45,196 nt of DNA from a virus. Positions within the stretch are counted from its first letter, which is position 1. Every line of letters starts with the position of its first letter. A program made the position numbers and the translations under genes. The DNA lies in the IMG/VR virus record IMGVR_UViG_3300010372_000001, positions 1 through 45,196 of that record; one strand, written 5' to 3'. This document shows, piece by piece, positions 768-44,583 of this stretch. The notes beneath the pieces were generated by a model that saw nothing but the letters and a program-made list of their open reading frames with translations, was not told where the DNA came from and did no database searches.

Positions 768-1190
768 CCTGTGTAAAACTTGTGTTTTTATTGCACATGC
801 GCAAGCTATTGATTTCATTTGGTTTAATGCAAAAACCTGTGTTTTTATGTGTAAGTTTGTGTATTCTTGTGTATTGAAAACACAGATGTAAGCTATTGAT
901 TTTAGGTAGAAAAGAGAAATATTTGTGTAAATATGTTTAATATATAAATAATAAGTAAGTAAGTAAGTAAAAGAAATATATAGTCGTGTGCGCACGCGTG
1001 TAGGGATACATATATACATAGGAAAACTACACAAAATACACAGGTTTTCGATATTCCTTATATATTTCAACGGCTTGCACGTGTGTATTAATACACAAAA
1101 TTTACACAGGTTTTTGATTTTATTTAATGGAATCAGAGTGTTGCAAAATACACAGGTTTACACAAAAATACACAGGTTTTGTGTTTTTTC
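768..1190. repeat. Symmetric CCTGTGT/ACACAGG repeat element A
   Basis: This is an AT-rich stretch without a credible gene. CCTGTGT and TGTGTTTT motifs fill the left arm (about 768-925), and the complementary ACACAGG and ACACAAAA motifs fill the right arm (about 1028-1187). AAGCTATTGA-type sub-repeats lie at 803 and 890, and inverted relatives at 1067 and 1133. Between the arms are a short AAGT tandem (953-970) and a GC-rich alternating core, GTGTGCGCACGCGTGT, near 986-1001. A second element of the same design is at 31279-31700. The right end borders the terminator of the DUF551 gene; the left end borders the leader of the DUF4942 and terminase genes. Candidate roles are late-gene control region or replication origin. 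Confidence 0.85.
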
Positions 1191-1295: not shown

Positions 1296-1324
1296 AAAAG
1301 AAAAAGCCAGCGGTTAGGCTGGCT
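1296..1324 (-). terminator. Rho-independent terminator, leftward
   Basis: On the minus strand AGCCAGC pairs with GCTGGCT around a 6-base loop, followed by TTTTCTTTT. It lies 12 bases past the stop of the leftward DUF551 gene and closes the 3528-1336 operon just before repeat element A. Confidence 0.85.
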
Positions 1325-1706: not shown

Positions 1707-3302
1707 TCAATCAATCAACTTATGCGACACATAAAAACGATTTCTAACTCGGATAACATACCCGTCCTGCTCCAGCTTTGGCATTATCAGCGTGCGCAAT
1801 ACTTCAGATGCCTGCGTATTTGCAAACTCTTTGCGGCTTCGCAGTGAGTTGGCCAGCACCTCGAATGTGATGCTAGGGTATGTCTTGGCAGCCTTCGCTT
1901 CCTTCAAATCATTTTGCAGTTTCTTTTTCAAGTATTCAACAGTGGCATTAATCTTCGGTGCATCGCCTGAATAGCCACGAGATTCTGTTTCTTGAAGATA
2001 GGTACGCGATAGCTCCTTGAATATCTCAATCGCTCTCTGCGTTGTTTTTAGGCCTATTTCCTTGCGCCTACGTCCAGTAGCTGACCATTCAGAGGCAATC
2101 CACAGAATCGAGGCTATTTTGCAGATGTGCTTATCGGCCTTGCCCATCGCGCCACGGGTCATGTTGTCACAGAATCGCCCTTGGTCTCCCATCTCCTTTT
2201 CGATTTCGTTGCGGAGTTTATCCAGCTCGCGCTTGGCTGAATCGTTAAACGTAAGCACGATTGGCGACTCATGCACAACACGATTTACCAGGTTGATATA
2301 GTCTGTTTTGGCCTCAGCATCCATGGGCGTGTAAGAAAGCATGTCACGCGAACCGAGCATGTGAGGCTCACGCATCAGCAGGATACGTTCAGAGATACCT
2401 CGGCCAGATTCGCCAGCCTTAAGTATTTGTTCCACTGCTTCGGCCTGAGCAAGTACAGCAAACGAGCCGCGAATATAACCCTCAAAGCCGTCACGGGTGA
2501 TACGTGATGATGAATGATATTCGCCAGCGTACATCTTCAAGAAAATACTGTGGTTAGTCTTTTTGGATGCAGTGTCGCCGTATGAGAAACCAAGCATCAC
2601 GTTTACCGCGTCCGACTCGTCAGAAACGATGTTAGCCCAGCCTTCTTGTGCGCTCATCTGTTTTTCAAGCGCTTCAGGCGTGGCATCATCCAGCGATAGC
2701 TTTAGCGGCCCCATTTCCTCCGACTTCTTAACAAGCTTGCCAATATCCTCGATAAGCTGCTCGTTGCCACCATTCTTTAGTTGGTCTTTAAGACCCTTAA
2801 TATCCATATCAATCTTGATTTTCTCGGATGCGCGTTTTTCGTTGAGCCCTTTAAACGCGATACGAATAGGATCCATCCAGTAAGCATTGACGCCTGATTT
2901 ACCCGTGGATGGAGGTTGCGCTGTCACAACGAATAGGTTGCAAGGCTCCTCTTTATCACCTTTGTACACAAACGAAAAATTGCGACAAATTGCAGCAGAT
3001 AGGCACCCCATTCCGTGAAGCATAACAGTGTTAACCGGGAATTTGACTGTAGCCGCAATCGCCCGGGAATACTGCTCGATGATGTTTGGCTTCCACCCGC
3101 TGATTACCGTATTGACAATATCAACCTCAATCGCGTTGTCCTCTGGGCGATAGTGGTTAATCGGCGGCCACATATCGCTATCAGTCAGCGCGCACAATTT
3201 GTCCTCGCGCTCATTGATAATCAGCCTAGCTAAACTGTCATACTCGCTGTTAGCCAGCGCTTCAAATAGTGATTCGTTATCATTCAGCATCGTTATCACC
3301 AT
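1707..3302 (-). CDS. DUF3987 family P-loop protein (YfjI-like)
   Basis: A 531-residue protein whose middle carries a Walker A motif, PPSTGKS, near residues 130-136, followed by a long charged helical stretch (about 155-195), SDESD (Walker B-like), then the GFEGYIRGSFAVLAQ and GESGRGISERILLMREP blocks typical of DUF3987. This family resembles replication-associated ATPases of phages and mobile elements; a replication role is inferred. The start may be 3302 or the ATG at 3290; both overlap the upstream gene by a few bases and neither has a strong ribosome binding site, which suggests translational coupling. It is transcribed divergently from the primase-helicase operon. Confidence 0.85.
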   Translation of the reverse strand: MVITMLNDNESLFEALANSEYDSLARLIINEREDKLCALTDSDMWPPINHYRPEDNAIEVDIVNTVISGWKPNIIEQYSRAIAATVKFPVNTVMLHGMGCLSAAICRNFSFVYKGDKEEPCNLFVVTAQPPSTGKSGVNAYWMDPIRIAFKGLNEKRASEKIKIDMDIKGLKDQLKNGGNEQLIEDIGKLVKKSEEMGPLKLSLDDATPEALEKQMSAQEGWANIVSDESDAVNVMLGFSYGDTASKKTNHSIFLKMYAGEYHSSSRITRDGFEGYIRGSFAVLAQAEAVEQILKAGESGRGISERILLMREPHMLGSRDMLSYTPMDAEAKTDYINLVNRVVHESPIVLTFNDSAKRELDKLRNEIEKEMGDQGRFCDNMTRGAMGKADKHICKIASILWIASEWSATGRRRKEIGLKTTQRAIEIFKELSRTYLQETESRGYSGDAPKINATVEYLKKKLQNDLKEAKAAKTYPSITFEVLANSLRSRKEFANTQASEVLRTLIMPKLEQDGYVIRVRNRFYVSHKLID

Positions 3303-3611: not shown

Positions 3612-4649
3612 ATGATTAGCGTTGAGTCAGTGAAGGCGATTGCAAATGGTAGGTGGCAAGATGTGTTTTCTTGGTGCGGCATCACTGTTCCAGCAAATAA
3701 GAGACACGGGCCATGCCCAATGTGCAGAGGCAAAGACCGCTTTCGCATGGATGATAAGGGCGGTGAGGGCACTTGGATTTGCAACAGTTGCGGCGCTGGT
3801 GACGGTATCGCTCTGGTGCAAGAGTTTAAAGAATGCGACTTTATCACCGCAATGAACCTGTGCGCCGATGCCCTCGGCATTCAGGATTACGACCAGATAA
3901 AGCGCGATGACACCACCAAGCGCAACGAGGCTAGGCAGCTTGAGCAGTCGGCAAGGCTGGCACAGGAAAAGCGCGAGAATAACGCAATCGCGGCAAGTCG
4001 TGCTGCTGATGTAGTGAGTCATTGCGCGGCGGCAGACCCAATGCATCCTTACCTAATCGAGAAGCAAATCAGAGTGCATAGCGCATTGCAGTGCTTCGAA
4101 AATGTGCTGGTCGAAACACGCTCGGGCAGGATGATGAGCATTAAGAATTTTTTGGTGATACCCATGTATAACGATCGAGGCAAGCTAGTTAACTGCCAAT
4201 TGATTTCGCCATGTCTGAAATACAAGTTGTTTATGCTGAACGGTCAAACCAAAGGCGCGCTTCATGTCATCGGTGATTTAGTGAATGGCGAGCCGATTCT
4301 CGTTGTAGAGGGTTATGCCACTGGCGCAACGGTGCGCGAGTTAACATCTATGACGGTTGTCGTGGCGTTCACGGCGGATAACTTGCTGGCCGTGTGCGAG
4401 TCGCTGGTATACGACTACCCAAAGTCGAAGATAGTCATCATGGGCGATAACGATTGGCACTTGGAGGATCCAATTAAGTACAAAAAACCGCAAAACAAGG
4501 GCAAGCACAAAGCGGCCGAGGCTGCGGCAAAGACTGGCGCAAGACTGATGTTTCCTGACTGGGCGCGTGGAGTGACCGATTTCAACGACCAGTATGTGAT
4601 TTACGGCAAGAGAATTGATTTAATTAAACTGATGGAGATTGTGAGATGA
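3612..4649 (+). CDS. DNA primase, zinc ribbon plus TOPRIM
   Basis: A 345-residue primase that would make RNA primers for phage replication. The N-terminal zinc ribbon has C35-P-M-C38 with GKDRFRMDD and C57-N-S-C60-GAGDG, the arrangement seen in P4 alpha-type phage primases. The second half carries TOPRIM-like blocks: ILVVEGYATGATV (acidic catalytic Glu) and IVIMGDND (Asp pair). A P4-type helicase domain is missing; the separate helicase at 5110 and the DUF3987 protein may supply that role. The start follows GAGG at 3602-3605 in the leader. First gene of the rightward replication-recombination operon; its stop overlaps the next start (ATGA). Confidence 0.92.
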   Translation: MISVESVKAIANGRWQDVFSWCGITVPANKRHGPCPMCRGKDRFRMDDKGGEGTWICNSCGAGDGIALVQEFKECDFITAMNLCADALGIQDYDQIKRDDTTKRNEARQLEQSARLAQEKRENNAIAASRAADVVSHCAAADPMHPYLIEKQIRVHSALQCFENVLVETRSGRMMSIKNFLVIPMYNDRGKLVNCQLISPCLKYKLFMLNGQTKGALHVIGDLVNGEPILVVEGYATGATVRELTSMTVVVAFTADNLLAVCESLVYDYPKSKIVIMGDNDWHLEDPIKYKKPQNKGKHKAAEAAAKTGARLMFPDWARGVTDFNDQYVIYGKRIDLIKLMEIVR

Positions 4650-5113
4650 GTAGAGAAATTGAGTTTAGAGGTTTAGCTACAAATGGTGAATATGTTTATG
4701 GTTCACTTGTTAACAATTGCGTTGGATTGCCTGGTGGGATTGGTCAAAACACTAAAACTTGGATTGTTACAAGCGCATTTGGAAACGGCGGCTGGTTTAA
4801 CGTTAGAGGTAGACAATACGTAAAGCCTGAAACAGTTGGGCAATACACTGGCTTGCTAGATTGCAATGGCACAAAGATTTTTGAGGGAGATATTGTGCGC
4901 CATTATCATTTTACCGACTCACGCGGAAAGGTGAATTACTTGAATCATATTGTTAAATGGTCTGATAAATTTAGCTCATGGTTCCTGATGAACTCCAAAT
5001 CAATGAGTGATACTGATGGTAGCGTCATGCTTTACCAGAAATTTAAAGAGCGTAACTACGAAGTCATCGGCAACATCCATCAAAACCCAGAATTATTGGA
5101 GATCTTAAAGTGA
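4646..5113 (+). CDS. YopX family protein
   Basis: A 155-residue protein with the YopX layout: REIEFRG at the start, VGQYTGLLDCNGTKIFEGDIV in the middle and YEVIGNIHQNPELL at the end. YopX proteins are small oligomeric proteins found in many phages, with no firm function. It starts within the primase stop (ATGA overlap) and its own stop overlaps the GTG start of the helicase gene. It is more AT-rich than its neighbours, consistent with a swapped-in cassette. Confidence 0.92.
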   Translation: MSREIEFRGLATNGEYVYGSLVNNCVGLPGGIGQNTKTWIVTSAFGNGGWFNVRGRQYVKPETVGQYTGLLDCNGTKIFEGDIVRHYHFTDSRGKVNYLNHIVKWSDKFSSWFLMNSKSMSDTDGSVMLYQKFKERNYEVIGNIHQNPELLEILK

Positions 5114-6984
5114 CAGAACAAATACCAAAACTAGGCAATGTAACCCCGTACCCATTCCAATGGGAGGTTGCGCAAAATCTAATATCCCACATAAGAAAGG
5201 CCATAAAGAAGGAGATAGAGCCAGAAGCAGCATATATTAACTGTTATGTCAGTTCTGGCAAAACAATCATCTCCGGAATAGTCGCTAGGCATTGTGAAAA
5301 TGTTGGCGCTAGACTGCTAATTCTAGCCAGAACAGGCGAGCTAGTAGAGCAGGATAGTGACGAGGTTTGGAATATGGGAGGCAAGGCAAGCGTATATAGC
5401 GCAAGTCTTGGCACCAAAAGCACTCACTACAATGTTGTAGTTGGTAGCGAGGGTACTGTATCAAATGCTCTGGATACTGATTTTTCGAAATGGATTCCGC
5501 ACGTTATATTGATTGACGAGTGTCATACCGTTGGCTGGGATGACGTTTTGAATGGAGGGGATTCGCAATACTCAAAAATACTAAATCACTTTAAGGCATT
5601 AAACCCAAGGCTGGCGATTGTTGGTATGACAGGCTCGCCATACAGGGGTGTCGAATCAATAAAAGGGCCGTTCTGGAAGCATGAAATACCGCCAGCAATT
5701 GACAGAGAGTTTTTAGTTGGTAAAGGCTATATAGTTCCAACAATATTTGGTTTCGGCCATGATGATGCACAGTATGAGTTAAATGGTTTTGAGCCAGAGA
5801 ACGAGTTCGGCACAAAAGAGTTTAGCGACAGCCAGCTTGAAGAAATGCACAGTCAAATGAAACTCAGCAACACTCAGGCAATTATGCGCGAGGTTGTAGA
5901 GGTGATGAAGTCAAGGCTTTGCGCGATAGTAACATGCGCGGGCCGCAAGCACTGCGAAGAAGTTGCCTCATGCCTTCCAAGTGATGAGTACGCAATTATA
6001 ACTGACAGCACTTTGTCGAGCGAGCGCAGAGAAATACTAAGAGCAGCAAAGCGCGGACAACTAAACGAAAGGGGCACGTTTAGATATAGGTATCTTGTGC
6101 AAGTAGGCGTGCTGACGACAGGCGTAAATTTGCCGCTAGTGGACACCAGCGTCATCCTACGCCGCATTGGATCGCTTACCCTGCTAACCCAGTTGCTCGG
6201 GCGTGGAATGCGCCTGCTCAAGCCTGAGCACATTGCAGCAGGATTAACAAAGACTGACCACTTAGTGTTGGACTATACAAGCACCATGTCAGCTATGGCA
6301 GAGCTGTTCAATGATCCAATTCTGGAAGAGGCGCAACTCAGTCAAGCTAAGCAATCTGGCGAGTACATTACCTGCCCGATTTGCGAAACCAAGAACAGCA
6401 CTCACGCTCGCCGCTGTATCGGACACGACACTATCGGCGACCAGCCGGACAACCGTTGCGGACACTGGTGGAAATTTCGCACGTGTGATGATGAAGTGGT
6501 TAATGGCATCACCATCGGCAAAGGGTGCGGCCATCGAAATGACATTGCAGCGCGTGAGTGTCGCAACTGTGGTAAGTATCTAATCGACCCTAACGCCAAC
6601 CTGACGCGCAAGCACTACAGCGATGAAGATTGGAAGCCCGTTCTGGATTGGAGGCTTGATATTATCGGCAAGAATAACGATGCGATCAAAGTTACCTACA
6701 TGCTCGACAGTTACGGCATTGACGGCAAGCAGGAGATTGCTGAGGTGTATTACTGGGCGATATTCTCAGGCGGTGCGCACATCTGGAAAAGCAAGTTTGT
6801 CGGCAAGCATGTCATTAAAGGTCTGTGGCAAAAAGCGGTTAACTGCAAAAACATTGGCGAGCTTGCCAGTAACAAATTCTGGAAAACGCCGGGTTTCATC
6901 ACTCACCGCAAAAACGCCAAAGGTGAAAGCATTGTCCATGGCGTGACATTTAAAGGCGAAACACTCTACAAGGCAGCAAGCTAA
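5110..6984 (+). CDS. Superfamily 2 DEAD/DEAH-type helicase with zinc motifs
   Basis: A 624-residue helicase. The start is GTG at 5110, overlapping the YopX stop (GTGA) behind GGAGAT. Motif I is SSGKT (G50-K51-T52), motif II is LIDECH near 135-140, motif III is MTGSPYRG near 175, and motif VI is QLLGRGMR near 365. The C-terminal third adds paired cysteine clusters (CPIC...RRCIG...RCGHWW, KGCGH and CRNCGKYL), probably two zinc ribbons for DNA binding. It is the likely replicative or recombination helicase, since no DnaB-type helicase is visible. Confidence 0.92.
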   Translation: MTEQIPKLGNVTPYPFQWEVAQNLISHIRKAIKKEIEPEAAYINCYVSSGKTIISGIVARHCENVGARLLILARTGELVEQDSDEVWNMGGKASVYSASLGTKSTHYNVVVGSEGTVSNALDTDFSKWIPHVILIDECHTVGWDDVLNGGDSQYSKILNHFKALNPRLAIVGMTGSPYRGVESIKGPFWKHEIPPAIDREFLVGKGYIVPTIFGFGHDDAQYELNGFEPENEFGTKEFSDSQLEEMHSQMKLSNTQAIMREVVEVMKSRLCAIVTCAGRKHCEEVASCLPSDEYAIITDSTLSSERREILRAAKRGQLNERGTFRYRYLVQVGVLTTGVNLPLVDTSVILRRIGSLTLLTQLLGRGMRLLKPEHIAAGLTKTDHLVLDYTSTMSAMAELFNDPILEEAQLSQAKQSGEYITCPICETKNSTHARRCIGHDTIGDQPDNRCGHWWKFRTCDDEVVNGITIGKGCGHRNDIAARECRNCGKYLIDPNANLTRKHYSDEDWKPVLDWRLDIIGKNNDAIKVTYMLDSYGIDGKQEIAEVYYWAIFSGGAHIWKSKFVGKHVIKGLWQKAVNCKNIGELASNKFWKTPGFITHRKNAKGESIVHGVTFKGETLYKAAS

Positions 6985-7421
6985 TGATTGAAGTAATACA
7001 AAACAAAGACGGCATTACCATTTACCGCAGCGTTGAGCGCGAAAAGAAAAGCCGCAGCGAGAACTGCGAGCAGATTGATTTGAATTTCCACTGTGCGCGG
7101 CTTTGGCCTGCTGAATATAAATCAATGTGGCACACGGTTAACGAGTCAGGTGCAAGCGGCTCTGTGCGATACGGTGCAGAGTTAAACAAGAGAGGTCGGA
7201 AAAAGGGCGTTTCAGACTGGATAGTAGCCGTCCCTAAAAACGGCTTTCATGGTTTGTTTGTGGAGCTAAAGAAAGAAGGTAAAGACGCATCACCCATCAG
7301 TAAAGAGCAGCGCGACTTTTTACTCTGCCAGCAGCAATTAGATTACAAATGCGCCGTTGCATATGGCTACAAAGCGGCATTAAAGGCAATTGACGATTAT
7401 CTATTGACTGGCAGAATTTAG
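6984..7421 (+). CDS. VRR-NUC domain nuclease
   Basis: A 145-residue protein with the compact PDDEXK fold of VRR-NUC proteins: KGVSDWIVAVPKNGFHGLFVELKKE gives the Asp and the E-x-K catalytic residues, and SKEQRDFLLCQQQLDYKCAVAYGY is the usual C-terminal helix-strand part. Such nucleases process branched or flap DNA and are often next to phage helicases. It starts at the helicase stop (TAATG). A promoter for the next gene is embedded in its last codons (7404). Confidence 0.9.
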   Translation: MIEVIQNKDGITIYRSVEREKKSRSENCEQIDLNFHCARLWPAEYKSMWHTVNESGASGSVRYGAELNKRGRKKGVSDWIVAVPKNGFHGLFVELKKEGKDASPISKEQRDFLLCQQQLDYKCAVAYGYKAALKAIDDYLLTGRI

Positions 7422-7464
7422 TAGCGCATAATGCGATTACTGTTTAATTGTGGAGATAAAAAGA
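7404..7464 (+). promoter_or_regulatory. Internal promoter with conserved leader
   Basis: TTGACT (7404-7409) lies in the last codons of the nuclease gene, with a 17-base spacer and CATAAT (7427-7432), followed by the leader TTTAATTGTGGAGATAAA before ATG at 7465. This is a member of the promoter-leader family also seen near 25621, 33511, 36719, 39326 and 42331. It lets the small gene at 7465 be transcribed apart from the main operon. Confidence 0.65.
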
Positions 7465-7734
7465 ATGAGTGAAGCAAAGTTTACTAAGGGGCCATGGATT
7501 GCCAAGGGGGATATACCAAGCAGAGTTTATGGGATGATGCGCGATGATGAGGAGATTTTAATTGCGGCAACTGGAAGCGTAAATCCGCATTCAGGAGCCA
7601 ACGCCAACCTAATCGCAGCAGCGCCTGAGATGTACGCGTTTCTTGAGCGGCTAATAGAGCCTTTTAATAATGTAGAATCAGTGATTTGTGAAGTTGAAAC
7701 TTTACTAGCCAAAGCGCGAGGTGAAACCGTATGA
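7465..7734 (+). CDS. Small phage protein, NLIAAAPEMY family
   Basis: An 89-residue protein; start at 7465 because GGAG lies 9 bases upstream. The N-terminus MSEAKFTKGPW is shared with the protein at 35923-36309. The middle has ANANLIAAAPEMYAFLERL and the end has ETLLAKARGE, motifs repeated in many small phage proteins of unknown role. It sits between the nuclease and recT behind its own promoter, so it looks like an inserted cassette. Its stop overlaps the recT start (ATGA). Confidence 0.8.
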   Translation: MSEAKFTKGPWIAKGDIPSRVYGMMRDDEEILIAATGSVNPHSGANANLIAAAPEMYAFLERLIEPFNNVESVICEVETLLAKARGETV

Positions 7735-8654
7735 AAACAGAAATCCAAGTAATCCAACAAATAGAATCAATGCTACCAGTAAAAATGTCAGAGTTCGATG
7801 CCGTATGCGTTGACGATAAAATCAACTTTGCCAAAGAAGCTGGCTTCGCACTGCAACTGCTAGGCGCTAACAAATTCCTAGGCGATACCGCTCGCAACAA
7901 TGCTCAGTCATTGCGTGATGCGATCTTGAACGTGGCAGCCATTGGCACCACGCTGAATCCAGCAGAAAAGAAGGCTTATCTAGTACCTAGAAAGGGAGTT
8001 GTATGCCTTGACCTGTCCTATCGCGGCCTTGCGGATTTGGCTGTTGAGTCTGGCGCTTGCGAATGGATTGATGCCAAGCTCGTCTATGCGAATGACGAAT
8101 ATCAGTCTGGCGGCATCGGTGAAAAACCTTACCACAAACCAGCCAATCCATACACAGGACAGCGCGGCACTATGGTAGGCGTTTATGCAGTCGCCAAGCG
8201 CAAGGATGGAAGCTATGCAGTGCGTGAAATGGACATGCAGCAAATCAACGCTATCAAAGCTCGCAGCGAATCAGGTAAGAAAGGCATGGGCCCATGGTCT
8301 ACTGATTTCAACGAGATGGTGCTAAAGACACCTGTTAAAGCCGTTGTTAAGATGCTGCAAGGCACAAGCAAGCGCATTGACAACGCCATTAACATGCTAA
8401 ACCAGCAAGGTGAAGGCATTGATTTTTCCAGCGAGCAGCGCTCGAATCCGCGAGATGTAAATTGCTCACAAAAAGCTCAAGCGCAGATTACAGAATTGCT
8501 AAACTCTTGCGGAATGGAAATTCAAGATGTTCCAGCATCAGCCATGGGCAGAAGCTCGCCAGTGTATACCTCAGAGGAATTGTCAGAGCTTGAAGCTGGC
8601 CAGTTAATAGCAATGCTGCGCATTCGCGTCAACAAAATGGGAGTACAAAAATGA
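7731..8654 (+). CDS. recT: RecT family single-strand annealing recombinase
   Basis: A 307-residue RecT-type protein that pairs complementary single strands made by the partner exonuclease. The conserved core is visible: LRDAILNVAAIGTTLNPAEKKAYLVPRKGVVCLDLSYRGL (about residues 60-102), GTMVGVYAVAKRKDGS (about 144-159) and the PVKAVVKM helix. The C-terminal 70 residues are polar and variable. It overlaps the exonuclease gene by ATGA and is followed by an SSB-like gene, the standard three-part phage recombination module. Confidence 0.95.
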   Translation: MKTEIQVIQQIESMLPVKMSEFDAVCVDDKINFAKEAGFALQLLGANKFLGDTARNNAQSLRDAILNVAAIGTTLNPAEKKAYLVPRKGVVCLDLSYRGLADLAVESGACEWIDAKLVYANDEYQSGGIGEKPYHKPANPYTGQRGTMVGVYAVAKRKDGSYAVREMDMQQINAIKARSESGKKGMGPWSTDFNEMVLKTPVKAVVKMLQGTSKRIDNAINMLNQQGEGIDFSSEQRSNPRDVNCSQKAQAQITELLNSCGMEIQDVPASAMGRSSPVYTSEELSELEAGQLIAMLRIRVNKMGVQK

Positions 8655-9565
8655 TTGAGCAACTCAGAGTTGATTTAGCATCATTTCAGCCGCAACTCGG
8701 GTTTAACCCGCTTGAAGTTGAGCAAGGCACTTATAACTGGGAACGTATGCGCCTTGGCGTTATAACAGCGAGCCGCATCAGCGAACTGCTGACTCCTAAT
8801 CGACTCGCGCCACTGCCAGATGATTTTGCGTTCGAGAAGGTCGGCAAGGATCGCTTTGTTGTCACCGCTGGCGAGTTTAAAGGCCTTGAGTGGCAAGGCA
8901 CTCGCCAAGATGAGTTTAAGCAGTTCATCCGCGAAAAGCTGCCAATGAAGCCGTCTTTGCAGCGTGAGGGCTACATGAACCATCTTATCGCCGAGATTGC
9001 GACAAAGATGCCTCAAGAGCCAGTGAGCGCAAAGACGCTGGAATACGGCAAGGAAAACGAGCCAAAGGCGCGTGATGCGTTTGCGTTCATGAACGGCATT
9101 ACCGTCCATGAAATCCCTTTTATCTACGCAGACAAGTCCATGCGATGCGGTGCTAGCCCTGATGGAATCTTTGGCGACACTGGCTGCGAAATAAAATGCC
9201 CATTCACTAGCAAGGTTCATGTTGCAACGCTTCTAGGTGATAAAATCAATGACGAATACATTCTGCAGATGCAATTTCAGATGTTCGTCACTGGCGCTAA
9301 GGAGTGGACTTTTGTTAGCTATGACCCGCGAATGCCGGGACACCTATCACTTAAAACAGTGACGGTGCCACGCTGCGAGGTAACGCAGGAGCTAATCAAA
9401 AACTCAGTTACCGAGTTTATCGAGCAGATGGACGCGAGACTTGCGCAACTTGGCCTTAAATTTGGCGACCAGTGGCTTGATGATGCGCAGCCAGAACAAA
9501 TCGAGCAACAGGCTTATTATTGTGAGCTAGAGCAGGACCAGCAATTTAACGTAGATGATTTTTAA
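8651..9565 (+). CDS. YqaJ-type (lambda exonuclease-like) nuclease
   Basis: A 304-residue 5'-3' exonuclease of the YqaJ/lambda Exo group. RLGVITASRISELL is the N-terminal signature; EYGKENEPKARDAF carries the first acidic residues; MRCGASPDGIFGDTGCEIKCPF holds the catalytic D and E-x-K; YILQMQFQMFVTGAKEWTFVSY is the conserved C-terminal core. It would resect dsDNA ends for RecT. Start ATG overlaps the recT stop. Confidence 0.95.
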   Translation: MIEQLRVDLASFQPQLGFNPLEVEQGTYNWERMRLGVITASRISELLTPNRLAPLPDDFAFEKVGKDRFVVTAGEFKGLEWQGTRQDEFKQFIREKLPMKPSLQREGYMNHLIAEIATKMPQEPVSAKTLEYGKENEPKARDAFAFMNGITVHEIPFIYADKSMRCGASPDGIFGDTGCEIKCPFTSKVHVATLLGDKINDEYILQMQFQMFVTGAKEWTFVSYDPRMPGHLSLKTVTVPRCEVTQELIKNSVTEFIEQMDARLAQLGLKFGDQWLDDAQPEQIEQQAYYCELEQDQQFNVDDF

Positions 9566-28024: not shown

Positions 28025-29089
28025 TTAAGAAATCACTGATGCGTAGAACACGCCTTTCTTGCCGTTTTGGGTAGAAGTAATCTTCAGGCCCTGAGCTGAC
28101 ACTAAGCAAGTGTTGTAGTTCTCGTACGGGTCTAGACGGGTTTTCATGTAGCTCGTCATTGGCAATGCAACGATTGGGCTAATGATTTCCTTGTCGCGAA
28201 CGTAACCGATGAACTCGTTACCAGTCAGTGCGAAGTCCTGCTCAATGCTGCCAATGTGCGGAGCGAAGCGCAACACTTGATCCAGCAGAGTGCCAGCCTT
28301 GAACTCAGCAGCACCAGACAGCGGTTGTAACAGGTTAGTCATGATTTCAGGCGACACATAAACCTTGTCGATCTTAGTCACAACGTTGTCATTGCAAACG
28401 GTCTTCATGTACTGGTTGAAGAACGCGATCACAGCATCAGACGCGGCAGTCGCTAAGTTGATGTTAGCGCCAGCAGCTCCCAAGTTGATTTGGTAGGTGT
28501 TGCGGTGATTCTTGATGCCTTGACCTACTTGGCCGTCAGCAGTGATGGTGGCATCACCGTTCAGCATGTAGTCGCCAACATCCCAGCCAAGCTTGACACG
28601 CTTCAGGCGCAGAGCTTGCAGCATCAAATCAACACCTTCTGAGCGCAGACCCATGTACTTGCGATAGTTCATGCCCACGCCACCAGTAAATACGGGGATT
28701 GGGTTTTTATCTGTAGCAGTGCTGATGTCGTCAAACTCTTTCAACAGACCGAAGTCCATTCCACGGCGGATCTCATCGCTGATATCGCCTGATGTAACGT
28801 TGACGTATGACAGCTTGCCAATATCAACAGGGGTCGCGATGCCTGCTAAGTCGTTTAAGAAAACGTACTTGTCGTTGAATCGCACGCCTTGGATAACACG
28901 GTCAACTTCTTGGAAGAAGTCTTTCGTAGGGATACCAGCGTTAGTTGCTAAGTCGCCTGCATCACGCAGACCTTTTGCCATTTCCAACTGGCGATTCATC
29001 CAGTATTCACGGCGAGAAAGCCACTCTTGCGCCTGCTCTTGAGCTGCACGGCCAAGCGACAGGTAATCTTTGTTAAAAACGATAGTCAT
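28025..29089 (-). CDS. Major capsid protein, DUF6260-like
   Basis: A 354-residue protein. N-terminal helical arm (FNKDYLSLGRAAQEQAQEWLSRREYWMNRQLEMAKGL), then HK97-like strands, VYVSPEIMTNLLQPLSGAAEFKAGTLLDQVL and GFVRDKEIISPIVALPMTSYMKTRLDPYENYNTCLVSAQGL near the end (the run reads GYVRDKE in this protein). Similar to DUF6260 family major capsid proteins of siphoviruses. Located between a decoration-like gene and the 54-residue gene, followed by a terminator, as expected for the most abundant virion protein. Confidence 0.85.
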   Translation of the reverse strand: MTIVFNKDYLSLGRAAQEQAQEWLSRREYWMNRQLEMAKGLRDAGDLATNAGIPTKDFFQEVDRVIQGVRFNDKYVFLNDLAGIATPVDIGKLSYVNVTSGDISDEIRRGMDFGLLKEFDDISTATDKNPIPVFTGGVGMNYRKYMGLRSEGVDLMLQALRLKRVKLGWDVGDYMLNGDATITADGQVGQGIKNHRNTYQINLGAAGANINLATAASDAVIAFFNQYMKTVCNDNVVTKIDKVYVSPEIMTNLLQPLSGAAEFKAGTLLDQVLRFAPHIGSIEQDFALTGNEFIGYVRDKEIISPIVALPMTSYMKTRLDPYENYNTCLVSAQGLKITSTQNGKKGVFYASVIS

Positions 29090-29099
29090 GTTTTACCCC

Positions 29100-29507
29100 T
29101 TACTTGACTGTTACGCTGATTAAAGCGGTTACCCCGACACCAGTGGTAATCGCTTCGTTTGCCCAGAATAAACCTTCACCAGCAGTTCCGGTTGTGGTCA
29201 GTAGTCCGCTAGCATTTACAAACAGCTCAGCATCTAACGCCACGGTTTGAGATGCCGCGAGGCGCAATGCAAAGGTGCGACCAGAAACAACTTTGTCGCC
29301 GTTGATGTTGTAGTCGGCGGCAATCGGGAAATCAACGCTAGTGCTGATGTCGCTAGTGTGAACAGCGTACAAGCGCTTTAAACCATCGTCAGCGGCAGCA
29401 AATTTGCCGCTAACTAGATTTACCAGAGTGCCAGCTTTGGTTTCTGCCGTTGCTGGTGCCGAGACGATATCTTGCAGACCATCTAAATTAATGCGATTCC
29501 AGGCCAT
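29100..29507 (-). CDS. Putative capsid decoration/stabilisation protein
   Basis: A 135-residue Ala/Thr/Val-rich protein (PATAETKAGTLVNLVSGKFAAADDGLKRLYAVHTSDIS...GDKVVSGRTFALRLAASQTVALDAELFVNASGLLTTTGTAGEGLFWANEAI). It has the look of DUF2190/gpD-like trimeric decoration proteins. Located between the protease-scaffold gene and the major capsid gene, where lambda D-type proteins lie. Confidence 0.7.
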   Translation of the reverse strand: MAWNRINLDGLQDIVSAPATAETKAGTLVNLVSGKFAAADDGLKRLYAVHTSDISTSVDFPIAADYNINGDKVVSGRTFALRLAASQTVALDAELFVNASGLLTTTGTAGEGLFWANEAITTGVGVTALISVTVK

Positions 29508-29510
29508 GTG

Positions 29511-31121
29511 TTAGCCCTCCAATTCTTGGAAATAGTTAGCGCCGAAGATGGATTCATCTTGCTTACCTTGATAACCACCAGCCGCATTCGCAGTGATTGG
29601 AGCATTCACGCCTGCCAGCTTGCGTAAAGTGTTTACGCTCATTTCAGCGGCTTCAGCTTCGTCAATGCCCAACTTATTGGCATAGGCTTTCTTTTCTTCG
29701 GCTTCAGCATCGGCCTTTTTCTTTTTCTCGGCTTCTGCGTCAGATTCCATTTTGTCCATCTTGGCTTTCATTTCAGCGTTAGACTGGATCAAAGCTTGAG
29801 CCCAAGCCGGTGTTTCTTTATCAGAATTTCCAGCATTTGCAGTAAGCATTGTTTCGTATTGTTTCAGCAGGTCAGCATCGGAGATATCGGAATTAACCGT
29901 AACGCCCTTGGCCGCCAACGCTGCAAGCATTTTCTCGCGCATTGCATCACCCTCTTGGTTATTAAATTGCTCTTGGCTATTGTAACCTGTTTTTTTGTTA
30001 TTACCAAAATCAGATTCAGGTTGCTCATATTCAACTTTTTTTACTACTACCATGGGATTACCAGCAAATGCAATTTGACCATCTTCAATCATGTACATTT
30101 GCTTCATAAGCTTTCCATCTTGCTTATAGATAAAATAATCTGAATAAACGTCTGTAGGCCATAACCATCTTTCGCCATCTGTTTTTCCTTTGTTTAATTC
30201 TGACTCGATTAGCGAACGCCTATCATCAAGGCTGGTTTCTGAGTTAATACCAAGAAACTGAGCAAACTTTTCCATAATTGTATTGATCGTGGTTTTTTCT
30301 TTTGGCATTTCATCTGCTCCAATTATTCTGTCAATGTTAACAACCATCACGCCTGCGTCAGCGTTGAATCTTACCATGGTATTATCACCACCAGCAGGGC
30401 GTTCATTGTCGTGCAAGAATGCTAAATGATCATAGCGCTGATTGGTCGCCAGCACCTCCCCCGCTTCGTTGGTAACTGGAATCAGGTTTAATCCAGTTGA
30501 TACACCAAACGATTCTTTGCGCTCAAGCTTATCGGCAAAGTAAGCGCCCAGCTCATTCTCAGCGTTGCGCATCATCTTCTTGCTAGCTTTGACGTCCACA
30601 TAGTTTACGCCGTTTGAGTTGTAGTGTTTAACAACATCCGAGCCTATGTACCACTGTTGGCGATCTTCATTCACGCTTATTGGGTATCCATCGCGGACTG
30701 GATGCCCGCCAGTGATTGGCTTCTGGTTAATGGTCGGCAGGCCCTTGGCGTTTTCGTCCTCTGGGTATTTGATGCCGTTCATCATTGCATTGTCCACGGT
30801 CACGGGAATGCCACGGATTAACCAGTAGTTTCCGTTGTCCACGATTTGCGATTTGCGCACCGTGGAATTGATCATGATTTGGTTGATAGTCATGTTTTGC
30901 GCCCTTTGTGCCTTTTCAACGATTTGTTTTGACCAATTATAACCCGCTTCACCACCCCAACCCAAATAAGCCTGATATCCCTTAGAATCCTTTCCCCAGC
31001 CTTCGCCCTGCTTATCGACCTCATGACGCTTAAAAAACGAATACATGCGCTTTACGGTATCAAGCGAAAGCGCCTCAGAAGCGATTAGCTGCCTCGCACT
31101 GGTTAAGCCTACCATAGTCAT
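29511..31121 (-). CDS. DUF2213-type prohead protease fused to scaffold-like tail
   Basis: A 536-residue protein in three parts. Residues 1-70: a helical segment with KRMYSFFKRHEVDKQGEGWGKDSKGYQAYLGWGGEAGYNW. Residues about 75-250: DUF2213 region (YWLIRGIPVTVDNAMMNGIKYPEDE, ITGGHPVRDGYPISVN, SFGVSTGLNLIPV) of phage head-maturation proteases. Residues 395-510: coiled, Glu/Lys-rich scaffold-like tail. The start at 31121 has AAGGG upstream, but the frame continues upstream for 37 further codons to an ATG at 31232 except for one TAA at 31157-31155, so the start may be secondary (see findings). An internal ATG precedes the DUF2213 part. Confidence 0.82.
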   Translation of the reverse strand: MTMVGLTSARQLIASEALSLDTVKRMYSFFKRHEVDKQGEGWGKDSKGYQAYLGWGGEAGYNWSKQIVEKAQRAQNMTINQIMINSTVRKSQIVDNGNYWLIRGIPVTVDNAMMNGIKYPEDENAKGLPTINQKPITGGHPVRDGYPISVNEDRQQWYIGSDVVKHYNSNGVNYVDVKASKKMMRNAENELGAYFADKLERKESFGVSTGLNLIPVTNEAGEVLATNQRYDHLAFLHDNERPAGGDNTMVRFNADAGVMVVNIDRIIGADEMPKEKTTINTIMEKFAQFLGINSETSLDDRRSLIESELNKGKTDGERWLWPTDVYSDYFIYKQDGKLMKQMYMIEDGQIAFAGNPMVVVKKVEYEQPESDFGNNKKTGYNSQEQFNNQEGDAMREKMLAALAAKGVTVNSDISDADLLKQYETMLTANAGNSDKETPAWAQALIQSNAEMKAKMDKMESDAEAEKKKKADAEAEEKKAYANKLGIDEAEAAEMSVNTLRKLAGVNAPITANAAGGYQGKQDESIFGANYFQELEG

Positions 31122-31278: not shown

Positions 31279-31700
31279 CCTGTGTTTTTCCTGTGTAAAA
31301 CTACACAGATGCAAGCTATTGAAATACTTATGAAATATATAAAACCTGTGTAACCTGTGTATTTTGTGAAATCAAAAACACAGATGCAAGCTTATGATTT
31401 ATAATGATAAAGTGACTTTTTTGTGTATTTTCCTGTGTTTTTCTTATATGAGTATGTCTACGCGCGTGCGCGCACGTATACCTATAAATTATTTTTTTAT
31501 TATTATATATATATTATTAATGATATTAATGATATTTACACAAATTTTCCTGTTTTTATTGCACAATCAACGACTTACACATGTGTTTTTAATACACAAG
31601 AATACACAAAAACACACAGATTTACACAGGTTTTGATTGAAATACCATAGCTATCAATGACTTGCGAGTGTGGTAAAAATACACAGGTTTACACAGGTTA
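31279..31700. repeat. Symmetric CCTGTGT/ACACAGG repeat element B
   Basis: Same design as element A (768-1190). Left arm: CCTGTGT near 31279, 31290, 31346, 31354 and 31432, with AAGCTATTGA at 31313 and AAGCTTATGA at 31388. Right arm: inverted relatives of those sub-repeats at 31567 and 31654 and ACACAGG near 31624, 31681 and 31691. The core near 31459-31480 is a run of alternating CG/CA bases containing the palindrome CGTGCGCGCACG, followed by AT-only sequence. It lies between the terminator at 31729 and the prohead protease gene. No credible gene is inside it. Confidence 0.85.
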
Positions 31701-31728: not shown

Positions 31729-31756
31729 TAAAAAACCCGCACTAGGCGGGTTGGTT
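31729..31756 (-). terminator. Terminator of the accessory/lysis operon, leftward
   Basis: Minus strand AACCCGC, 5-base loop, GCGGGTT followed by TTTTATT. Located 15 bases after the stop of the secreted-protein gene and immediately before repeat element B, so transcription of the head genes must restart within or after element B. Confidence 0.88.
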
Positions 31757-32574: not shown

Positions 32575-32777
32575 TTTAATTCACTCGCTTTTGGTCGGTA
32601 GTGTGGTTTGAATATGACGTTGTTTTCGTCAACTCTTTCAGGTCCAGCGCATTTAGTAATTCCGCATACTCCTACACCTTTAAGGGAGCATCCTGAGCAC
32701 AAATCTAAACCAGTATATTCATGCTTTACAGCCTTATACTCCTTGCCATTTACCACCACTATGTTGTGATCAATCAT
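32568..32777 (-). CDS. Small cysteine-rich protein
   Basis: A 69-residue protein with four cysteines as CSGC-x6-C-x4-KC in its middle (DLCSGCSLKGVGVCGITKCAG), a likely zinc-binding knuckle. GKEYKAVKHEY precedes it. Overlaps the upstream gene by 4 bases (ATGA). Function unknown. Confidence 0.65.
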   Translation of the reverse strand: MIDHNIVVVNGKEYKAVKHEYTGLDLCSGCSLKGVGVCGITKCAGPERVDENNVIFKPHYRPKASELKW

Positions 32778-33247
32778 TTCTCACACTCCCATTGCGCCTT
32801 AAACTCATAAGCGCCAAACCTTGTCAGTATTTCGTTTAGTTCGGTGTCGTCCATCTCTTCACCTACTGGACTGGCGACCCAAGCGGCGGTTAGTTGGTGC
32901 ATCTTGTTAAACTTGGTCAGCATCTCTTTGTGTAACTCGTTACAGCTATTTGCTATCTGCGATTGCATAACTGGATGCGGAGGAGCGAGTATTTCAAGCT
33001 TGCTGTACTCTTGGTCGTCTTGTCTGCGCCCAGTAACGATACAATGCTGAATCCATTTGTGCGGCACATCAGCAATCGCTCCGGCCAGTGTCTCGCTAAT
33101 GCGCTCGATGCGTTTCTTTTTGCGGTTCCAGACTTGAACTTTACCGTCATTCTGCCCAGCTACGAATACAATTAGTAGGTCTTTAACGACTAACCTGGCG
33201 ATTGTGTAATAGCGCTTAGCTGCGGTTTTGTGTGGTCTACTAGCCAT
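32774..33247 (-). CDS. Unknown phage protein, 157 residues
   Basis: Start ATG at 33247 is chosen because AAGGAG lies 8 bases upstream. The N-terminus is basic (ASRPHKTAAKRYYTIARLVVKDLLIVFVAGQ), the middle has VQVWNRKKKRIERISETLAGAIADVPHKWIQHC, the C-terminus is acidic. May bind nucleic acid; no family recognised. Second gene after the helix-turn-helix protein. Confidence 0.65.
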   Translation of the reverse strand: MASRPHKTAAKRYYTIARLVVKDLLIVFVAGQNDGKVQVWNRKKKRIERISETLAGAIADVPHKWIQHCIVTGRRQDDQEYSKLEILAPPHPVMQSQIANSCNELHKEMLTKFNKMHQLTAAWVASPVGEEMDDTELNEILTRFGAYEFKAQWECEK

Positions 33248-33506
33248 GAGCAGCACTCCTTCTAACCACTGAATTTAGTGCCTTATGCGCCATCATAAAA
33301 GGCGCATATTCGCGCCTCTCAAGCTCGTCATATCTTGCCTCTCTTGATATTTTCGAGTGGCGAATATTTGATGCAGTTTTTACCCCTAGATTCTTCCTTG
33401 CTCGCCTTACTGTTACCGCGTTGCACTTGACGATAGCCATGATTTCAAGCGTTGAGATGCCTTCTTTGATTAGCTTTTCGCACTGGTCGAGTTTTGTTTG
33501 TTTCAC
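33240..33506 (-). CDS. Helix-turn-helix DNA-binding protein
   Basis: An 88-residue protein; GTG start at 33506, with the conserved leader GGAGATAA 7-14 bases upstream. LDQCEKLIKEGISTLEIMAIVKCNAVTVRRARKNLGV is a clear helix-turn-helix (recruit helix TVRRARKNLG), followed by a basic tail. First gene of the leftward 33.5 kb operon behind a consensus-like promoter, so it is a candidate regulator of the early promoter family. No phage repressor family could be named. Confidence 0.65.
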   Translation of the reverse strand: MKQTKLDQCEKLIKEGISTLEIMAIVKCNAVTVRRARKNLGVKTASNIRHSKISREARYDELERREYAPFMMAHKALNSVVRRSAAHG

Positions 33507-33510
33507 GCGT

Positions 33511-33572
33511 TTATCTCCACAATTAAACATATTAGAATAGTAAACCCTCGTAATTCGCTAGTCAATGGAGAT
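33511..33572 (-). promoter_or_regulatory. Promoter-leader cassette, leftward
   Basis: Minus strand TTGACT (33565-33560), 17-base spacer, TACTAT (33542-33537), then TTTAATTGTGGAGATAAA before GTG at 33506. Bounded by the inverted repeats ATCTCCA (33513-33519) and TGGAGAT (33566-33572). Confidence 0.75.
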
Positions 33573-33626
33573 TTGGAAGTTGTTTGATTTTTGTTTAGCT
33601 GTAGACAGGCGGATGGCAAAACGCAG

Positions 33627-33652
33627 GCAAAAAAATACCCCAATAAAGGGGC
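33627..33652 (-). terminator. Short terminator after the tRNA-like gene, leftward
   Basis: Minus strand GCCCC, TTTATT loop, GGGGT then ATTTTTTT. The stem is short (4-5 bp) but followed by a strong T-run; it lies about 70 bases beyond the 3' end of the tRNA-like sequence. Confidence 0.6.
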
Positions 33653-33722
33653 TAAAGGTTGTGGAGACTTAGAGTTGGCATATCTCTATGCTAGGGAAGG
33701 TGCTGCGGAAATATTATTCGGC

Positions 33723-33813
33723 TGGTGACCAGGATGGATTTGAACCATCTTTCCTTACGCAAGGTTGCGACCCTTTAGCGCTTTGCTTTTCCAATTAGCG
33801 TCTCTTAATCACC
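33723..33813 (-). tRNA. tRNA-like gene, aberrant, possible anticodon CGC
   Basis: On the minus strand a 91-base sequence has a T-arm with perfect 5-bp stem and 7-base loop (GATGG, TTCAAAT, CCATC), and 5' GGTGATT pairing with 3' GGTCACC as an acceptor stem. AAGG-GTCGCAA-CCTT gives a 7-base anticodon-type loop with CGC in positions 34-36 (alanine codons GCG). A D-arm-like GCT-AATTGGAAA-AGC is present. But there are about nine extra bases between the D-arm and the anticodon arm and a long variable region, and two bases separate T-stem and acceptor. It may be a decayed or unusual tRNA. Confidence 0.5.
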
Positions 33814-34166
33814 ATGCGAATAAAATTTATTGCATCACTCACGCTTCACAGCGTTAGCTTTGCTTGCCTGCTATCGCTTCGGCTGCGAGATTGATCACCT
33901 CCTTGCGTTGATGAACAACTAATGTGCAAATCGACCATGAACACACAATCCGTTAGCACATTGAGAAAGTGTTTCGCCAGTCGCAATCTGGCTGTTGGTC
34001 GAACCGCCTATTTAATCAGCAGGCCATTAAAACACCTTCACAATATGCACCGCTTACGGCGGTGAGTCGTTTACCATAAATGCAGGCAGCCAACCCGCCA
34101 AGATTGACACTGCCTGTTTGCACTATCTCGCTATCAAAAATAGCCTGCCAGTTAAATATCCACCAT
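33814..34166. other. Intergenic stretch without a convincing gene
   Basis: About 350 bases between the tRNA-like sequence and the Rz gene. On the minus strand AAGGAGGTGATC (33908-33897) is a full match to the ribosome's anti-Shine-Dalgarno, but the frames after it are short: a 30-codon Arg/Ser-rich frame at 33938-33846, and a GTG frame (VINLAAEAIAGKQ) that stops after 14 codons and would continue as ANAVKRE after removal of one base. An inverted repeat GCAGGCAG/CTGCCTG lies at about 34082-34120. Could be a small RNA leader region or a decayed gene. Confidence 0.5.
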
Positions 34167-34661
34167 TCACCTATCTTTGTCAACAACTATTTTCGCCCAA
34201 TCTTGCAAAGCCTTTAATTTTGCTTCACACCTGTCGGCATCTCGTCCGATTGCCGCAATGCTTCTTGCAGTCGATGCTGGTAGCTCTGCTGTTGTGTATT
34301 CTTCTCCATTGCCCATAATGGAGGCGCTGGTATCTCGCACTGAACAATCAGCGGCTTTGGTGATGACGCGCACCCGCCAAGGCCGATTAGCAAGCTCAGT
34401 ATTAAGTCGGTCATTTTCAGATTGTGCATTTTGATACTTCTCCCAGGCTTCTCGCTCGCTTTGTTCTGCCGCTTCGTCTTTCTGCTTGCGCTGCTCATTG
34501 AGTTTAGTTAGCGCGCTAGCTGTCGCTTCGTTCATGACTGACTTTTCAGCAAGCCAATCGCTCATCACTGAATCATGGCCGTATTTGTAGCCGCCGAAAG
34601 TTGACAGTGCCAGCAGTCCAAGCGCAATAGCAATCTTAATCGTTAGCGGATTTATTGGCAT
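34167..34661 (-). CDS. Inner-membrane spanin (Rz-like)
   Basis: A 164-residue protein; start at 34661 behind GAGGGAGT. One N-terminal membrane anchor (IKIAIALGLLALSTFGGYKYG) is followed by a long periplasmic helix (LAEKSVMNEATASALTKLNEQRKQKDEAAEQSEREAWEKYQNAQSENDRL) and a C-terminal domain with two cysteines. This is the i-spanin plan; it fuses inner and outer membranes in the last lysis step. A lipoprotein partner is encoded within it in another frame. Confidence 0.88.
   Translation of the reverse strand: MPINPLTIKIAIALGLLALSTFGGYKYGHDSVMSDWLAEKSVMNEATASALTKLNEQRKQKDEAAEQSEREAWEKYQNAQSENDRLNTELANRPWRVRVITKAADCSVRDTSASIMGNGEEYTTAELPASTARSIAAIGRDADRCEAKLKALQDWAKIVVDKDR
34214..34414 (-). CDS. 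Outer-membrane spanin lipoprotein (Rz1-like), embedded in Rz
   Basis: A 66-residue frame fully inside the Rz gene. MTDLILSLLIGLGGCASSPKP has a lipoprotein signal with lipobox L-G-G-C (Cys15); the mature part is Pro-rich at first (PKPLIVQCEIPAPPLW) and then helical. An alternative ATG is 5 codons upstream at 34429. Embedded Rz1 genes of this type are well known in lambda-like phages. Confidence 0.85.
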   Translation of the reverse strand: MTDLILSLLIGLGGCASSPKPLIVQCEIPAPPLWAMEKNTQQQSYQHRLQEALRQSDEMPTGVKQN

Positions 34662-34884
34662 GATTGACTCCCTCGTATTTTGATTGCACAGCCTTGGCCC
34701 AGCCGCCAGAGCCAACGAGCGCAAGACCTGCTGTTATAGCAGTACCTGCGTGAGTCGCGTCAATAAACATGGCCGCCGCACCTGCAACGGCCACCAGCGA
34801 GCCGACAATCATCGAAATCATAAACCCCAAGCGCATCATTGAATATTTGCCTGTTGCGCTGCACAAAAAGAAATTTCGCATCAT
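34636..34884 (-). CDS. Putative holin
   Basis: An 82-residue membrane protein with two segments: MISMIVGSLVAVAGAAAMFI and AGTAITAGLALVGSGGWAKAV, and a charged C-terminus. Position between the muramidase and Rz genes is the reason for the holin call; no named holin family recognised. The start at 34884 (or the next ATG, 34881) overlaps the stop of the 25-residue ORF (ATGATG), suggesting coupled or dual starts as in class II/III holins. Confidence 0.72.
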   Translation of the reverse strand: MMRNFFLCSATGKYSMMRLGFMISMIVGSLVAVAGAAAMFIDATHAGTAITAGLALVGSGGWAKAVQSKYEGVNHANKSAND

Positions 34885-42330: not shown

Positions 42331-42410
42331 TTATCTCCATTAATCAACCTGAATAGATAGTAATCCTGCATTAACAACAAGTCAATGCGAGATTTAAAAA
42401 TAATGGAGAT
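42331..42410 (-). promoter_or_regulatory. Promoter-leader cassette, leftward
   Basis: Minus strand TTGACT (42385-42380), 17 bases, TACTAT (42362-42357), then TTGATTAATGGAGATAAAGAA. ATCTCCA at 42333-42339 and TGGAGAT at 42404-42410 bound the module; the second copy reaches the terminase stop codon. Confidence 0.75.
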
Positions 42411-44092
42411 TATCTTCTGCGGCGATATGCCAGGGAGGAGGCGGTGGAGCGTGAACCGTCAATAACTAGGTCTTGTACTGCGTCCATCAGTGTGTCGTAC
42501 TGGTCGTCATAGCCGCTTTCTTGGTCCATGAGGACGCCAAGAGTTAGTGCGTCAAGTTCAGAAATGAATGGCAACACCCAATCGGTGCTATATGCATTAG
42601 TGCCATCATGCCATTTAGTGAAAGGTAGCGGGTTGCCTTCTTCGTCAGATGTCATTGGCAGAAAAACTTTACCCATTTTCATGGTAGGCTGAGTGTTGCA
42701 ATGACGGGCGTATTTATTTTGCCCTTCTCCGCGCTGCTGCTCCTTGATTGGTATTTTCTTCTCGTCCTTTAACGTCTGGATAAGTCCTTGACCAGCCTGT
42801 TTGTCTTCGATTGCTAAGTATCTGATTTTAAACTTTAAAGCACTAGGGATTACGCTGTTCCAGCTATTCCAGCACTCTTTGGCTGTCGTCAAGATTCCTA
42901 GCGGGTCAAGTTTGAATCTTTTGCAAGCTGCTACGTAAAGGTTTCCGTCAGAGTCGGTTAATACCAATGTCATGACGTTAAAGTCATTGCTATCTCTGAT
43001 TTTCCCTGAGTTGGTGTCTACATAGATTGCACCGCCAACGATGTCGGATGGTAAAGTGCTGTACCTTGGGAACCAATCAGTATCAACAAGGCCGCCTGAG
43101 TGAGCCACTGGCTCTTGCATGTACTGGCTCATGAATGTGTACGGATCTGCTTCCCATAAGTCCATTAGCTGGTCAATGTCTTCCATCTCAGGCCAGTAAG
43201 ACCAGTATTCAATTCCTCCTTTAATTCGACTTGGCGAGTCCTTGATTGATTCCCAGCAATCAGCCGCAACTTCTGGCGGCAGTGTGCGCAAAAACTCCTT
43301 AGTGATTAACGCAGGGACTTTAATCTGTTTGAATGGGACGCCCATGCCGCCATTAAGGCAGAAGCCAACAGGGTCATCCTTATGAAGCCTTTGCATCACT
43401 AGAAAAAACGGGGTCGGATGCTCTTTTGACTTGTCGCCGCGCCGTGACCGCACCGTGTTGTTTAGCTTTCTGTTTAGTGCATCACGCTTTACAGCCGAAA
43501 ACATATCTTCTGGCTTGGCAGGGTCGTCAAGACTTACCGCTCCAGAAAATCCCTCACCAAAGAAGCCGCCCCTACCACCTGTAATTTGACCGCCCATAGC
43601 GCGGGAAATGGTCTCTCCTTTAACCTTCCCTTTCTCGTCAACAATTTGCCATTCTTCGGCCTGATTTGTGCCAAATCCGCAAGGCCAAAGTTCTTGGTAT
43701 TCTTTTGACGCGATAATGTCTCGGGTTCTGCGGGAGTTGCGCTTAACGAGGGAGTCAGCAAATGAAAGGTTCATGTTCCTGAACCGTTTCAGCTTGCCGA
43801 TGTTTACCAGCATGTTTGTGTATGCCGGAAGGTGAATTGAGAAATACTCGGTTTTTGTGCCGCCAGGAGGGAAGCATATTGCTAATGACTGCGATGAATC
43901 CCCGTGCCTAACAACTTTATCAACTTCGTTTGCAGCATAGCGATGATGCCAGTTAACTAGCAGCTCATCGCCTTGCATCAGCTCAAACCATATGCGAGTG
44001 AAGTTTAGGAATGATTCCTCTGATAATTCCTTTATCGCAAGACGTTCATAGAAATCCATTTCAAGCCAGTCTTTGTTATCAAATAGACTCAC
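42410..44092 (-). CDS. terL: Terminase large subunit
   Basis: A 560-residue DNA-packaging motor. ATPase part: Walker A-like [12 protein letters not shown] (about 73-84; a deviant P-loop, as in several TerL groups), [11 protein letters not shown] Walker B region (about 190), a [19 protein letters not shown] coupling motif. Nuclease part: [11 protein letters not shown] (first Asp, about 340) and [18 protein letters not shown] (second acidic residue), then [14 protein letters not shown]. It would cut concatemers and pump DNA through the portal. Overlaps the small subunit by 4 bases. Confidence 0.93.
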
Positions 44093-44583
44093 TTGATTTT
44101 CTCGCGCAGTTTCTCTTGTGCCTTGCGGTACATTTCAGAATCGAAGGTGTTCCCGTTAGGGCTTAGGGAGCCGTCAGATGATGATAAATCTTTCTTGTCG
44201 ATAAGACCTAAATCACGCGCAATGATATTGGCGTTAAGCAGGTCAGCAGATGCTCCAGCGAACTTCTGGTCATAGATGACGCCCTTTATCTCGCGCACGA
44301 CACCGATAAAATCTTCTCTATTTCCGTACGCCAGAAGCGTGTCTTGGTCTATTCCTAGGAAGAAGCAAAGCCCTTGAATCGTCATCGCTCGCATCTTTGG
44401 CAATGACTCAATCCAGCTCTCACCTTTAAACGAGAACGCCTTGGCCTCGTAAAGCGGGTTATCCTCTACCCATTGAAAATACTCGCAAGAAGCATCCCAT
44501 AGTTGCTCTTGAGTTTCAAAAATCTTGCCTCGTCCGTGAGAGCTTCTAGCCTTCCAAAATTGGTTTCCTTTCGGAGCAGCCAT
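44089..44583 (-). CDS. terS: Terminase small subunit / DNA-packaging protein
   Basis: A 164-residue protein beginning [22 protein letters not shown], the opening of small-terminase-type DNA packaging proteins, then a helical middle ([21 protein letters not shown]: helix-turn-helix-like) and a C-terminal helix. It recognises the packaging start. Upstream of terL with ATGA overlap. Confidence 0.9.

Follow-up and report, generated by a model that had tools for sequence, protein, structure and literature searches.

Two non-coding elements of the window, A (768..1176, unstranded) and B (31279..31697, unstranded), are probably the paired replication origins of a virulent-type tailed phage, with A the proposed first origin near the replication genes and B an oriR-like second one. 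We put the chance of this reading at roughly three in four; the origin activity and initiator binding that it entails are predicted from the DNA.

The window, meaning the whole 45,196-bp stretch analysed, looks like a complete phage genome. Its ends (1-123 and 45074-45196) share 123 identical bases as a direct terminal repeat, so that the unit is 45,073 bp; the repeat most likely reflects circular permutation or assembly overlap. The replication genes include a DUF3987 (phrog_2373) MCM-like helicase (1707..3302, minus strand), which is our candidate initiator, and a primase (3612..4649, plus strand) that aligns with the primase domain of P4 alpha over 282 residues at 33% identity (E 8e-35). 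A RadD-like helicase (phrog_16; 5110..6984, plus strand) is an alternative origin-binding candidate. It is followed by a recombination module of a VRR-NUC nuclease, a RecT-like annealing protein and a RecE-like exonuclease (6984..9565, plus strand), and we count the nearby presence of such a module, as in SPP1, in favour of origins. The genome also encodes portal, coat protein, tape measure, terminase, and head and tail genes. Identity to known counterparts is about 75% for the terminase large subunit (region 42410-44583; Vibrio phages such as VBM1) and at most about 39% for the coat protein, which points to a mosaic genome.

Element B is built of two facing arms. The left arm (31279..31438, plus strand) carries CCTGTGT at 31279, 31290, 31345, 31354 and 31432, and the outer part of the right arm (31624..31697, minus strand) carries ACACAGG at 31624, 31681 and 31691; all 5 + 3 sites agree with the preliminary description, which had confined each word to its own side. 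The arms also contain longer composite units, ACACAGATGCAAGCTATTGA (31303..31322) and ACACAGATGCAAGCTTATGA (31378..31397) on the plus strand and the inverted TCAACGACTTACACATGTGTTTTT (31567..31590) and TCAATGACTTGCGAGTGTGG (31654..31673) on the minus strand. All four reported AAGCTATTGA-like sub-repeats were recovered, at 31313 and 31388 and, inverted, at 31567 and 31654, with a spacing of 87 bp in the right-hand pair. The core is the unstranded GC palindrome CGTGCGCGCACG (31465..31476) with an AT block after it, the order that had been described. The proposed melting region (31478..31557, unstranded) is the least stable 80-bp window genome-wide. Searched alone with two mismatches allowed, the 12-mer CGTGCGCGCACG did not occur above chance, and B as a DNA query against phages and plasmids gave no match. 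B has stops in all six frames and is thus non-coding, and we dropped the coding reading that the preliminary description had raised as a challenge to its own account.

The symmetry of the elements is well above what we obtained from randomized sequence. There are 17 CCTGTGT/ACACAGG sites in the window, compared with 4.1 +/- 1.9 in shuffles, and 14 of them fall inside A and B. With the orientation counts held fixed, perfect segregation of the two orientations would arise by chance with a probability of 1/56 for B and 1/15 for A (our own arithmetic). When the genome was scanned for words present in forward orientation to the left and in reverse orientation to the right, the elements scored 28 and 25, as against at most 4 elsewhere and 2-5 in block-shuffled genomes. 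Symmetric arrays so far above shuffles were counted for the origin reading.

Element A is best described as an inverted homologue of B. The preliminary description had held that the two are not related by simple sequence duplication; alignment contradicts this, since B matches the reverse complement of A by blastn at 71% over about 345 bases (E 3.4e-36) and the global alignment score is 324 in the inverted orientation, 193 in the direct orientation and 61 +/- 10 in shuffles. By this measure A and B are homologous along their whole length. The 87-base spacing reported for both was confirmed (the left-hand sub-repeats of A lie at 803 and 890), and it follows from the homology, as the right arm of B corresponds to the left arm of A. 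Words enriched in A and B are of the CCTGTGT/TGTGTA types. Measured around the circle, the distances between the elements are about 14.6 and 30.5 kb. One small gene separates A from the DUF3987 helicase gene and its operon, A being on their 3' side; B is located elsewhere. We also asked whether A and B evolve in concert, and rejected the idea: within-genome identities of 0.646 and 0.655 exceed the 0.619 and 0.624 between orthologues by too small a margin.

Symmetric arms about a palindromic core, present in two inverted copies, could also suggest recombination, partition or packaging sites (attP, parS, pac or invertible ends). The GC core, however, differs between A (CGTGTGCGCACG, 985..996, unstranded) and B, which argues against such sites. 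No match to tyrosine integrase PF00589 (the integrase family searched) or to ParB PF02195 was found in the genome, against attP and parS, and the terminase small subunit gene (44089-44583) is separated by more than 12 kb from B and by more than 1 kb from A, against pac. We regard sites of this kind as highly improbable.

The surroundings of the elements bring in a second alternative, that they are operator or promoter regions in which arrays of sites for a phage regulator control the adjacent minus-strand genes. A terminator-like hairpin (1305..1324, minus strand) separates A from the helicase operon, and on its other side A meets the beginning of a minus-strand gene, which runs across the contig junction and by eye looks to encode a DUF4942 protein. 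Similarly, B lies between a terminator-like hairpin (31734..31752, minus strand), beyond which is the upstream minus-strand gene, and the head-protein operon, where again a minus-strand gene begins. Both elements thus have a gene immediately downstream, the position expected of a regulatory region, and we counted this against origins; in many relatives, moreover, the intergenic array appears by eye to adjoin small genes resembling DNA-binding proteins. On the other hand, A and B are mutually inverted and yet their downstream genes point the same way, promoter-like matches at A and B were not above shuffles, and an operator would need neither mirror symmetry nor the lowest stability of the genome. 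Regulation as the function of the elements is therefore unlikely in our judgement, and the two roles can coexist at A and B.

Low duplex stability sets the elements apart from the rest of the genome. The proposed melting region of A (902..981, unstranded) is the second least stable 80-bp window genome-wide, after that of B, and the two least stable 80-bp places are likewise the two elements in the related contigs G001 and G012. We counted these first and second ranks for origins. Of the 14 genomes listed, 13 have at least one element in first or second place for low stability. Among 39 loci, all of which carry the DUF3987 helicase and not all of which are independent, the least stable window is at most 1.5 kb 5' of the helicase gene in 24, and the strongest array is in that same interval in 15. 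For stability, the figure expected by length is about 3.4, and the contrast is overstated because a length-based expectation ignores AT-rich intergenic DNA generally.

Relatives came from a helicase-profile scan of viral contigs, which gave 80 loci. Viral contigs scanned with one protein at a time (the helicase, the head protein) and with a 20-mer pattern gave nothing, and a composite-unit pattern search matched an already known relative plus five hits without arrays. The closest relative, G001 (45,210 bp), has a helicase 77% identical to that of the window and aligned DNA about 66-79% identical. It carries both elements in corresponding places with their relative orientation unchanged, which counts for origins; a four-way alignment puts the elements at about 62% identity to their orthologues. 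By eye, the two genomes have different genes downstream of A (the one in G001 looks YopX-like) while the element is retained, and persistence of the element through such a change also weighed in favour of origins.

In distant phages, with helicases about 30-43% identical, the sequence of the element is gone and different words make up the same layout (GGTATG, AAAGGGTAA, AATAGGA, TTTGCCGC, TTTGTGG, TTTAGGGG, AAAAGGA and TCGGTAA). Recurrence of the layout and of the least stable DNA beside the same helicase was counted for origins. It also bears out, together with the retention of both elements in G001, the earlier suggestion that A and B are of one design whose layout is kept by selection. G012 has two such elements with TTTGCTTA-type words in both, and by eye G002 apparently has two AT-rich regions of this kind. 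The array scan was weak or showed no clear array in four helicase carriers (G008, G009, G015 and G022), and this was counted against origins. Among words common to the elements TATATA types dominate; a shared core motif suspected by eye, CTACAG/GGGTTT, is absent from the enriched words and was rejected. A polarity of the arms, G-rich inward, was found in 16 of 32 elements and in 44 of 210 control windows and is absent in A and B, so this idea was only partly borne out. Separately, the least stable DNA of Klebsiella phage DP01 (40115-40615) and of Pseudoalteromonas phage XCL1123 (10194-10727) is intergenic and 5' of the DUF3987 gene, and by eye has GGGGCA and TGCCCC on opposite sides.

Most relatives have one strong array only. 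This raises the alternative that A alone is an origin and B a non-initiating partner, either a fork barrier, as proposed for SPP1 oriR, or a distant enhancer like crr, which P4 requires in cis. B, however, retains all parts of the arm-core-arm plan and has the genome's lowest-stability DNA, and a mere barrier would need neither. We consider a non-initiating B doubtful, and prefer two origins.

Published work predicts that DUF3987 is a helicase family (PMC5862659). The predicted structure of the window's protein (pLDDT 89) matched MCM/CMG helicases in all 50 of the 50 matches listed, with a best E value of 5.8e-6 and a TM-score of about 0.36, so the MCM likeness is at the level of the fold and partial. 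The C-terminus of the model, about residues 445-531, has the helix-strand-helix-helix-strand-strand order typical of a winged helix. Its mean identity is 0.29 as against 0.40 in the core, as expected if this end reads lineage-specific words, and protein ends are often less conserved anyway. The P4-alpha-like primase and an MCM-like helicase model with a winged-helix-like C-terminus were together counted for origins; the chances that DUF3987 is the initiator at these elements are about even.

T1-like phages have this helicase family too, their records giving high scores with phrog_2373, and gene 32695-34881 of T1 is likely, by position and size, to be the counterpart of the DUF3987 helicase. 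The two least stable windows are intergenic in both T1 (210 and 29999) and TLS (202 and 28806), and the windows of each pair match each other (E 3e-11 and 3e-12), a similarity that is partly compositional as the DNA is AT-rich. Candidate paired origins would be 1-540 and 29840-30120 in T1, and 1-600 and 28700-29170 in TLS. The array scan of T1 and TLS did not flag these AT regions; we therefore treat them as a lead only, and counted the result against origins. In the T1-like contig G018 the least stable DNA coincides with a clean array of TTTGTGG. Two other T1-like contigs, G025 (28200-28577) and G024 (14419-14797), contain short extra fragments that match both ends of phrog_2373.

Taken as a mechanism, the paired-origin reading would run as follows. 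Each element would hold two sets of initiator-binding iterons, in opposite orientation, around a GC palindrome and an AT-rich melting region, the iterons being the CCTGTGT-type words and the composite unit AAAACACA..TGCAAGC..TTGAT. The MCM-like DUF3987 helicase may bind them through its C-terminal winged-helix-like domain, so that one ring would be loaded per arm, with the rings facing and the AT core melted, and the P4-alpha-like primase would prime two diverging forks. Early replication would start at A, which adjoins the helicase operon. B is located among the late head genes and could be a second origin or, as proposed for SPP1 oriR, a site where stalled forks help bring about the change to recombination-dependent concatemer synthesis. 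Somewhat short of an even chance, in our estimate, is the broader idea that DUF3987-type initiation, by facing rings on inverted iterons around an AT core, defines a widespread and unrecognised class of virulent-type phages, in which iteron word and DNA-binding end of the helicase co-diverge from lineage to lineage, with two such origins in several of them (that of the window and possibly the T1 group). A plan of the type found in phage-inducible islands (PICIs), beside DUF3987 helicases in full-size phages, would extend the range of that plan and give a clue to how replication machinery is shared between satellites and phages. It would also point to defined candidate origins in the T1-like phages, where published searches have located no origin in TLS (PMC11447400) or SU57 (PMC7718038). 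If an MCM-like phage helicase does load on facing arrays, archaeal and eukaryotic origin loading would have a simple counterpart in phages.

We compared the elements with four known systems. SCCmec Cch and Cch2 and SaPI Rep, which are self-loading helicases, resemble the window's candidate initiator in being MCM-like or D5-like; SaPI Rep and Cch2 are described as binding iterons next to their own gene via a C-terminal domain (PMC7581432), which for DUF3987 is predicted only, and they belong to other helicase families (DUF927 and D5-type). P4 has two separate cis elements, ori and crr, with the same iterons, crr being just 3' of alpha past a terminator, and the window has a primase of the P4 alpha type. 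In contrast to the window, the type 1 iterons of P4 are GGTGAACA rather than CCTGTGT/TGTGTA types, alpha fuses primase and helicase, which are separate genes here, and the P4 arrays are not cleanly mirror-symmetric. SPP1, also a siphovirus-type genome of about 44-45 kb, has two related origins, oriL and oriR, about 13 kb apart (14.6 kb in the window) with repeats and an AT-rich melting region; oriR is non-coding, in the late region, and has been proposed as a site where forks stall and concatemer synthesis is thereby triggered (PMC6316719, PMC3485210). The window would share this arrangement, with one element near the replication genes and the other non-coding among late genes. The SPP1 repeat boxes are direct, whereas those of the window are inverted around the core, and SPP1 uses a G38P-type initiator, while the window gave no match to the replisome organiser PF09681.

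The closest likeness is to PICI/SaPI origins, in which two iteron sets flank an AT-rich region adjoining the initiator gene (PMC6092414), the same two sets around an AT-rich region that we see in A and B. In the EcCICFT073 island, whose origin was tested (PMC6092414), we found 11 GGTAGA sites 3' of the primase gene, mostly reversed or forward according to side, with exceptions; a tested origin of the same plan counted for our reading. The window differs in having two copies, a much stronger AT core and, we infer, a DUF3987-family initiator. It is also a full-size phage with head, tail and terminase genes and without a tyrosine integrase match, rather than a satellite island. It thus combines features of PICIs, SPP1 and P4 and is a member of none, having no PF09681 match, no P4 iteron and no satellite character. 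The best reading, by analogy, is that A and B are origins of the PICI/SaPI type in a full-size phage, duplicated as in SPP1 or P4: a known kind of element, found here in an unfamiliar setting and with two new features, mirror symmetry and duplication.
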